From Candidatus Levybacteria bacterium RIFCSPHIGHO2_01_FULL_38_26 (lineage in GTDB: Bacteria; Patescibacteriota; Microgenomatia; Levybacterales; UBA12049), in the NCBI GenBank assembly GCA_001782075.1, contig MFNO01000033.1, positions 1 to 32,113 of the forward strand: a stretch of DNA of 32,113 bases. The letters are read 5' to 3'. The notes beneath the pieces are model-generated. The model worked only from the letters and a program-made list of their open reading frames with translations. It searched no databases and had not been told where the DNA came from. Position numbers and translations under genes: made by a program. Of the stretch, positions 25,375 to 26,624 are shown piece by piece. Positions within the stretch are counted from its first letter, which is position 1. Every line of letters starts with the position of its first letter.

Positions 25375-25403
25375 TTGCTTCGAAGATCTTAATGGAGTAA
25401 AAT
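25375..25403 (+). promoter_or_regulatory. Promoter TTGCTT-N17-TAAAAT upstream of the structured tRNA-Arg leader
   Basis: Read directly; predicts a start near 25410 and a leader of about 84 nt before tRNA-Arg(GCG). Confidence 0.6.
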
Positions 25404-25449
25404 ATAACCGCGCAAAGGGCTGAGTTGAAAGTGTCCCTTTGCGAATCCC

Positions 25450-25492
25450 TAAAGGGAAATCGTCGGGAAAAACCGTGAGGTTTGTCCCGTTT
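25450..25492 (+). repeat. tRNA-Arg leader hairpin element, copy 1
   Basis: TAAAGGGAAATCGTCGGGAAAAACC-GTGA-GGTTTGTCCCGTTT ending 1 nt before tRNA-Arg(GCG). Confidence 0.8.
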
Positions 25493-25493
25493 A

Positions 25494-25565
25494 GCGCCCA
25501 TAGCTTAACGGATAGAGTTGCGGCTTGCGGAGCCGTAGATCCCAGTTCGATTCTGGGTGGGCGCG
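25494..25565 (+). tRNA. tRNA-Arg(GCG)
   Basis: Acceptor GCGCCCA/TGGGCGC; anticodon loop TTGCGGA; T-arm CCCAG-TTCGATT-CTGGG; followed by CCA. Confidence 0.92.
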
Positions 25566-25579
25566 CCAAATTAAAACAT

Positions 25580-25664
25580 GGAGGGTTCGCATAGTGGACA
25601 ATTGCACGAGTTTCGAAAACTCGAGGGAGTAATCCCTACACAGGTTCAAATCCTGTACCCTCCG
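25580..25664 (+). tRNA. tRNA-Ser(CGA)
   Basis: Acceptor GGAGGGT/ACCCTCC; anticodon arm CGAGT-TTCGAAA-ACTCG; variable arm. Confidence 0.95.
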
Positions 25665-25713
25665 CAACACTTTTCTATAGCAAAGATTTATCAAAACAAG
25701 TTAATAAAACAAT

Positions 25714-25757
25714 TTAGGGAAAATCGTTGGGAAAAAACCGAAGGTTTTGTCCCATTT
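25714..25757 (+). repeat. tRNA-Arg leader hairpin element, copy 2
   Basis: TTAGGGAAAATCGTTGGGAAAAAACC-GAA-GGTTTTGTCCCATTT ending 1 nt before tRNA-Arg(CCG). Confidence 0.8.
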
Positions 25758-25758
25758 G

Positions 25759-25833
25759 GTCCTCGTAGTTCAACTGGATAGAGCGTCAGGTTCCGAACCT
25801 GAAGATTTGAGGGTTCGAGTCCCTCCGAGGACA
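25759..25833 (+). tRNA. tRNA-Arg(CCG)
   Basis: Acceptor GTCCTCG/CGAGGAC; anticodon arm TCAGG-TTCCGAA-CCTGA. Confidence 0.95.
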
Positions 25834-26624
25834 CCCAAGCCCTCTCCCTGTTCTCCTGATTTTTCAGCTCGTAGATCTTTTGCCCTCTGATACTCAATCA
25901 ATGCCTTTGCTGAAAGTTTAACTGTATCCAAAGTCTCGCCTTTATCCGCGGCTCCAATCACTTCCTGGCCTAATTTTTGCAAGTATAAAGGGTTCTCTTT
26001 TATTTCAGGAGGCAATCCTTTTTCTACCTGACTCCTGGCCCACTTATCATAATACTTAGACAAAGCTTGTTGATCTATTTCTGAAATATTAATATCCTTA
26101 TGTTGCTTCTTTGCGTCGGAATACAAATCTCCCCAAGTTCTTTTAAAGTCCGGATCATTTGTTAATTTTCCTGGAATCTCAACTCCTCGGCTTTCCTCTT
26201 CCTTTTCTTGCGGCGCAAAATTCTTTTCCTCTTTACCTTCCAAAACGACTTGGTCAATTTCTTCTGAGGGAGATTGATTATCAATGCCTATCGTGTCATC
26301 TTGTTTTTGCTCTTGTGCAAATCTTTTTACTCTATCCAGGATGCCTTTTATTCCTATGCCTTCTTTTTTCTCAACAGTATCCGGGGGCAATTCTGTTAAT
26401 TGGGGCTCTGTTTCTTCTGCCTCTTGGTCTTCAGGCTTGTTAAGCTCTATGTAATTGGATTCTATCGGTCTAGTCTCTGAAGAATGGGTTCTCACGGCAA
26501 TATCTTCTTTAGCTTTCTCAACTACTTCACTGCGCAATGATTTTATTGTTTCTTCAAGACTACCAGACTCTGCCACCTCTGGCTTCTCAACCGCTGGTCT
26601 TTCTGATTGATCTTTTCCATTCAT
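25770..26624 (-). CDS. Charged hypothetical protein whose C-terminus reads through antisense tRNA-Arg
   Basis: 284 aa ORF, Glu/Lys-rich; final residues GTRTLKSSGSEPDALSS encoded antisense to tRNA-Arg(CCG). Confidence 0.6.
   Translation of the reverse strand: MNGKDQSERPAVEKPEVAESGSLEETIKSLRSEVVEKAKEDIAVRTHSSETRPIESNYIELNKPEDQEAEETEPQLTELPPDTVEKKEGIGIKGILDRVKRFAQEQKQDDTIGIDNQSPSEEIDQVVLEGKEEKNFAPQEKEEESRGVEIPGKLTNDPDFKRTWGDLYSDAKKQHKDINISEIDQQALSKYYDKWARSQVEKGLPPEIKENPLYLQKLGQEVIGAADKGETLDTVKLSAKALIEYQRAKDLRAEKSGEQGEGLGVLGGTRTLKSSGSEPDALSS

Follow-up and report, generated by a model that had tools for sequence, protein, structure and literature searches.

A compact structured RNA element of about 85 nt precedes the tRNA-Arg(GCG) and tRNA-Arg(CCG) genes in the window, which is a 32,113-nt stretch of contig MFNO01000033.1 from Candidatus Levybacteria bacterium RIFCSPHIGHO2_01_FULL_38_26, and in related genomes the same element is found directly 5′ of many other tRNA genes, of tmRNA and of a range of protein genes. 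No description of it was found in open-access PMC papers (subscription papers or preprints may hold one), and, within the scope of Rfam and this open-access literature, our data suggest that it represents a previously undescribed structured leader RNA family.

The two copies in the window

The first-pass annotation had described two related hairpins, each ending 1 nt 5′ of a tRNA-Arg gene, and both were confirmed as written. Copy 1 as described spans positions 25454-25492, its 3′ end lying 1 nt from the start of tRNA-Arg(GCG) (25494-25568, + strand), and copy 2 spans 25717-25757, ending 1 nt from the start of tRNA-Arg(CCG) (25759-25835, + strand); both tRNAs were identified by ARAGORN and by Rfam model RF00005. 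The stems differ in length by a single pair, GGGA-A-AAACC/GGTTT-G-TCCC in copy 1 versus GGGA-A-AAAACC/GGTTTT-G-TCCC in copy 2, and the internal A·G mismatch is retained in both. The element is absent from the tRNA-Ser genes (0 of 4), again in agreement with the earlier description.

A two-hairpin pattern matched only these two sites in the whole 1.13-Mb Levybacteria-type genome, and a related pattern used in a later scan gave two matches in the window against 0.00 expected from 100 shuffles of the window. Hence the element does not arise by chance. The 54-nt stretch of copy 1 (25440-25493) has a predicted folding energy of -22.2 kcal/mol, with z = -4.1 relative to shuffles. The 59-nt stretch of copy 2, taken alone, gives z = -1.5, with 13 of 200 shuffles folding as well or better; as it is not unusually stable, the case for copy 2 rests on homology.

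Anatomy of the element

The hairpin noted earlier, here termed HP3, forms the 3′ part of the full element: an upstream hairpin (HP1) comes first, then an unpaired GGGAAAA-type motif, then HP3, which holds the A·G mismatch. All features described below lie on the + strand. HP1 of copy 1, overlooked in the first reading, is a 9-bp hairpin at 25411-25443 with arms CGCAAAGGG (25411-25419) and CCCTTTGCG (25435-25443) and loop CTGAGTTGAAAGTGT; it is predicted by folding, and the homologous hairpins covary. Directly 5′ of it is a -10-like sequence, TAAAATATAAC (25398-25408), which on the basis of its sequence and the pattern in relatives is the probable promoter of copy 1; a simple promoter scan did not pick it up. 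At class level, outside the window's family, a -10-like hexamer ends 0-4 nt 5′ of HP1 in 29 of 65 copies (for example L099, L121 and L122) compared with 5 expected. This position would place the transcription start inside the 5′ arm of HP1, though the outermost HP1 pairs covary.

Folding also gives a possible small hairpin in copy 1, HP2 (TCCC-TAAA-GGGA, 25446-25457), which is mostly limited to the window's family and is missing from the class sequences. The linker between HP1 and HP3 contains UAAAGGGAAAUCG, and the conserved linear motif TAAAGGGAAATCG occupies 25450-25462, with near-invariant columns in alignments A1 and A6. HP3 of copy 1 (CGGGA-A-AAACC-GTGA-GGTTT-G-TCCCG, 25464-25489) is seen in the sequence, the fold and the pairing of relatives, 99.7% of the HP3 cells in alignment A6 being paired. 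In copy 2 the corresponding linear motif, TTTAGGGAAAATCG (25713-25726), falls within a covariance-model match at 25672-25757 and is followed by HP3 (TGGGA-A-AAAACC-GAA-GGTTTT-G-TCCCA, 25728-25754, from sequence and fold). Copy 2 thus keeps the linker and HP3 and has no recognisable HP1. The conserved motif of the element reads WNRGGAAAA-CG.

Covariation of the stems

The proposal that the hairpins belong to a selected structured leader RNA is strongly supported, the structure being kept across many genera with extensive compensatory changes. Among 30 sequences from a pattern scan, 94% of cells pair and all 10 modelled pairs of HP1 show two-sided changes. Two-sided cells number 137 against 38.9±5.1 in shuffles, values obtained from an alignment fitted to the model and with shuffle tests that kinship inflates, and the signal is lost when the pairing partner is slid. 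RNAalifold predicts the same two helices from the 30-sequence alignment. Since the pattern scan fixed much of HP3, it is HP1 that bears the evidential weight for covariation. In HP3, changes of length are compensated, and the upper stem is wholly replaced at two loci (L132 and L111).

A two-state switch, in which the linker GGGAAAA would swap with the 5′ strand of HP3, was considered and rejected: the linker is unchanged where HP3 has become GGAGA/UCUCC, and as it does not track changes in HP3 a simple strand exchange is unlikely. An asymmetry between G·U and A·C cells was also set aside as proof of an RNA, for it amounted to 74 versus 24 in the model-fitted alignments but shrank to 8 versus 5 when stems were searched symmetrically.

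Some family members are enlarged. L046, L056 and L059 carry large hairpin inserts in HP3 or in the linker, the HP3 insert being alike in two genera, and distant genomes carry variants in which an additional helix separates GGGAAAA from HP3, among them copies 5′ of L11 and of tRNA-Arg(CCU).

Target genes in related genomes

A blastn search of the leader against 60 related genomes found leaders approximately 85-93% identical to it in several other genera, placed before tRNAs of other isotypes. A covariance model built from 11 sequences (R1) gave 28 matches in 18 of the 73 genomes of the family, nearly all of them directly 5′ of a tRNA gene (Arg, Gly, Lys, Pro, Leu, Thr, Tyr, Phe or Met); with His, Gln and Asp added, these are the tRNA isotypes that carry the element across relatives. 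In the class, 31 of 281 genomes have the element; strict filters lose some from the family and class counts. Searches of the class and of a set of 24 genomes with R1 and a broader model, R2, returned 1-17 matches per genome, and around half of the class-level matches are not 5′ of tRNAs.

The protein targets, with Pfam support or assigned by eye, include S8, S19, S20, L6, L7/L12, L36, IF-1, RpoA, RpoC and HU, and further YbaB, ATP synthase c, adenylate kinase, an RRM protein, LysM and DUF5679 proteins and Lon; the gene names among the class targets are rpsH, rpsS, rpsT, rplF, rplL, rpmJ, infA, rpoA, rpoC, HU and atpE. The element also stands 5′ of tmRNA and of L11 (rplK, assigned by eye). Some targets have no part in translation (LysM, Lon and a nucleotidyl transferase). 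Genes that carry the element in more than one genus are rpoA, infA, rplF, tRNA-Gly(UCC), tRNA-Pro(GGG), atpE and DUF5679, and the occupied tRNAs differ between genomes yet recur, in particular Gly(UCC), Lys(UUU) and Pro(GGG).

Of 56 cases with a tRNA downstream, 48 have 4-8 nt between the closing base of HP3 and the tRNA; the distance to the Shine-Dalgarno core is mostly 7-10 nt. Before S19, S8, L6, IF-1, L36, RpoC and Lon (one family) the element ends approximately 5-12 nt from the start codon, and no Shine-Dalgarno sequence was seen.

Two further suggestions of the first-pass annotation are not supported. A charging-responsive leader is not favoured by the many tRNA isotypes, the tmRNA and the protein genes that the element precedes, nor a simple duplicated leader-tRNA unit by the finding that copies 1 and 2, the latter without HP1, differ about as much as do copies from different genera.

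Several loci show unusual arrangements. Tandem copies of the linear motif and HP3, with no HP1 or obvious promoter between them, occur at L091, L094, L096 and L103 (genomes G161 and G127), some of them 5′ of tRNA-Pro; at L091 and L094 the tandem HP1-less copies lie within one leader. In two Gottesmanbacteria genomes (L098 and L125, also L147 and L198) a conserved stretch of non-coding sequence lies behind the element; it matches nothing in Rfam even at E 0.5 and is possibly an undescribed small RNA. At L227 the element is followed by a Shine-Dalgarno sequence, a 9-codon ORF (MAKKRKKKK), a possible tiny basic peptide or leader peptide, and then a hairpin with a T-run. The distant copies L208, L211 and L223 have terminator-like hairpins within about 20 nt, one of them beside a convergent gene, and are possibly stand-alone small RNAs.

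Taxonomic range and origin

When 84,980 bacterial and archaeal species were scanned with an exact pattern, 61 loci matched, all from Patescibacteria as judged by title or genome relationship. They belong to Levybacteria, Roizmanbacteria, Gottesmanbacteria and Microgenomates, with a few in Saccharibacteria, Parcubacteria, Paceibacterota and Falkowbacteria; the matches in Parcubacteria and Falkowbacteria are weaker and may be due to chance. As far as a scan of this breadth shows, the family appears to be confined to Patescibacteria. A phage or viral origin was rejected, the pattern being found in 0 of 2.9 million viral contigs.

Two Saccharibacteria have the element within a 23S rRNA gene, each in a different variable region (L168:6882-6967 and L186:5342-5257). 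At L186 it closes an insertion that carries a small ORF, immediately before the 23S rRNA sequence resumes.

Orthologues of tRNA-Arg(GCG) and tRNA-Arg(CCG) in other genera, whether of the same family, the same order or the same class, are without the element, including several with matching gene neighbourhoods, and where their promoter is recognisable a TATAAT-like box lies about 8-15 nt 5′ of the tRNA. Given these element-less sister genera, either this genome gained the module of about 85 nt between promoter and tRNA or the others lost it. In the window's lineage the element is limited to a few tRNA genes. At L004 (genome G044), tRNA-Arg(CCG) and tRNA-Arg(GCG) each lie behind a near-identical stretch consisting of sequence like a tRNA 5′ half, a hairpin and TAAAAT, which is a different repeated tRNA leader.

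Proposed role and alternative explanations

Patescibacteria are mostly uncultured and have reduced genomes, and to our knowledge there is hardly any account of how they coordinate the expression of genes for translation. We put at about even the chance that the element is a leader module that works in cis on newly made transcripts of translation-machinery and other housekeeping genes. The sequences show the anatomy, the strong covariation, the orientation, the tight spacing and the sharing of the element by coding and non-coding transcripts, all of which speak for this reading; weighing against it are the patchy distribution (18 of 73 family genomes and 31 of 281 class genomes), the non-translation targets and the terminator-flanked distant copies. 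Because tRNAs, tmRNA and mRNAs share the element, action through translation alone is unlikely, and the sharing points to a mechanism most probably at the transcript level.

In the model we propose, the leader would sit between the promoter and the start of translation-machinery and housekeeping transcripts, where the GGGAAAA motif and HP3 would be recognised by a trans-acting protein or by RNA polymerase itself. The leader may then set the output of the marked transcripts together, by elongation control or 5′-end handling, the candidate biochemical steps being elongation control, 5′-end processing or stability. More tentatively, and with the balance somewhat against it, the leader RNA and a putative dedicated factor might together mark the tRNA, tmRNA, ribosomal protein and RNA polymerase transcripts of Patescibacteria with a shared tag for control or maturation, that is, an RNA-level growth regulon without a counterpart described in other bacteria. 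A structured leader RNA is an element of a known kind, but there is an appreciable chance that the regulon marked by this one represents a novel mode of control. The placement of the element suggests that Patescibacteria control or finish the transcripts of their protein-making machinery by means of an RNA. One compact RNA on tRNA, tmRNA, ribosomal protein, IF-1 and RNA polymerase transcripts offers a concrete, testable handle, and would add to Rfam a structured RNA family absent from it.

The main rival, on account of the sharp 3′ boundary and the 23S rRNA case, is a 5′-end processing module in which a nuclease or self-cleavage at or near the 3′ edge of HP3 would leave pre-tRNAs, rRNA fragments and mRNAs with a short and well-defined 5′ end. 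We regard this as unlikely, though it accounts for several observations: HP3 stops 4-8 nt short of tRNA 5′ ends and, where no Shine-Dalgarno sequence is seen, about 5-12 nt short of the start codon, tRNAs without the element would have a similarly short leader given a -10 box about 8-15 nt upstream, and the L186 element ends its insertion just 5′ of the resumed 23S rRNA. However, sequence conservation was not observed at the 3′ edge of HP3, no known ribozyme family in Rfam was matched, and genome compaction alone could explain the short spacing. There is a match to RNase P RNA (E = 9.8e-18, below the Rfam cut-off), and RNase P would in any case remove tRNA leaders; the match led us to reject loss of RNase P as the reason for the leader.

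A riboswitch-like element or growth-signal sensor common to translation genes would fit the regulon-like target set and the highly conserved unpaired linker between the two helices. We consider it distinctly unlikely, as no alternative fold or expression platform was found, GGGAAAA does not co-vary with HP3, no terminator lies between the element and the tRNA, and the element is very small for a ligand pocket; nor was any alternative pairing backed by covariation noticed in the element alignments.

The patchy presence, the variation between genera in which tRNAs are occupied, the empty orthologous sites, the tandem copies, the insertions in 23S rRNA genes and the copies away from gene starts would all be expected if a small mobile element or repeat, playing no part in regulation, settled behind the promoters of highly expressed genes. 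REP/MITE-type repeats are likewise short, palindromic and multicopy in some genomes. They differ from the present element in its fixed orientation and spacing to gene starts and its covarying stems, and a mobile origin of this kind seems to us improbable: the orientation is almost always the same, the distance to the gene is nearly constant, the same genes are occupied across genera, HP1 covaries rather than decays, and copies in one genome can differ as much as copies between genera. No target-site duplications were noticed at the element copies.

A leader specific to tRNA-Arg, the first reading of this DNA, is highly improbable even though both copies in this genome precede tRNA-Arg genes, since in relatives the searches placed the element 5′ of numerous other tRNAs and of mRNAs, and the sister-genus orthologues of both tRNA-Arg genes are without it.

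Comparison with known leader RNAs

When searched against Rfam release 15 (4227 models), the element regions of the window and of about 40 related loci matched only tRNA, tmRNA and rRNA, and the window leader gave only chance-level matches at up to E = 10.

The T-box riboswitch is a leader RNA tied to tRNA biology and in joining the two resembles the present element. The T-box, however, precedes an mRNA and binds tRNA, whereas here the tRNA is the downstream gene, and no Rfam T-box match was found in the element regions. Autogenous ribosomal protein leaders (such as the L10, S8 and L20 leaders of Rfam) are likewise structured 5′ UTRs of ribosomal protein mRNAs, but each is specific to one gene, imitates an rRNA site and acts on its own operon, whereas here one motif serves many unrelated genes and tRNAs. 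We rejected such a leader, as the element is not limited to one ribosomal protein operon and is also found 5′ of tRNAs, tmRNA and unrelated mRNAs.

Antitermination leaders of the EAR, put and LoaP type are structured leader RNAs that act in cis on RNA polymerase, as the present element would be expected to do. They serve long mRNA operons or phage late genes, in contrast to an element that precedes tRNA genes of about 75 nt and has no Rfam match.

Nearest in logic are the rrn leaders and the lambda nut sites (boxB-boxA-boxC, with NusB-NusE binding boxA), which likewise combine a promoter-proximal hairpin with a conserved single-stranded motif on translation-apparatus transcripts, but in boxA and in placement at rRNA operons the present element departs from them. 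The element lacks the boxA consensus (taken as GYTCTTTAANA; PMC5725501), and two hairpins flank its linear motif. BoxA sites themselves occur upstream of mRNAs too (PMC5725501). R2 had no match, at E up to 1, in six 16S loci of element-bearing genomes taken with 1.5-kb flanks; absence from these 16S leaders weakens a general rRNA-type antitermination role, and we set aside such a leader as an explanation.

Three of these six 16S leaders, all from Gottesmanbacteria, carry a separate boxA-like sequence, CTTTAACAATCG. In the 16S leaders L235, L236 and L237 (genomes G161, G185 and G142) a promoter is followed by an intrinsic-terminator-like hairpin with a T-run, a boxA-like CTTTAACAATCGAATGGTGATAGG and then 16S, an arrangement that is a possible attenuated rrn leader.
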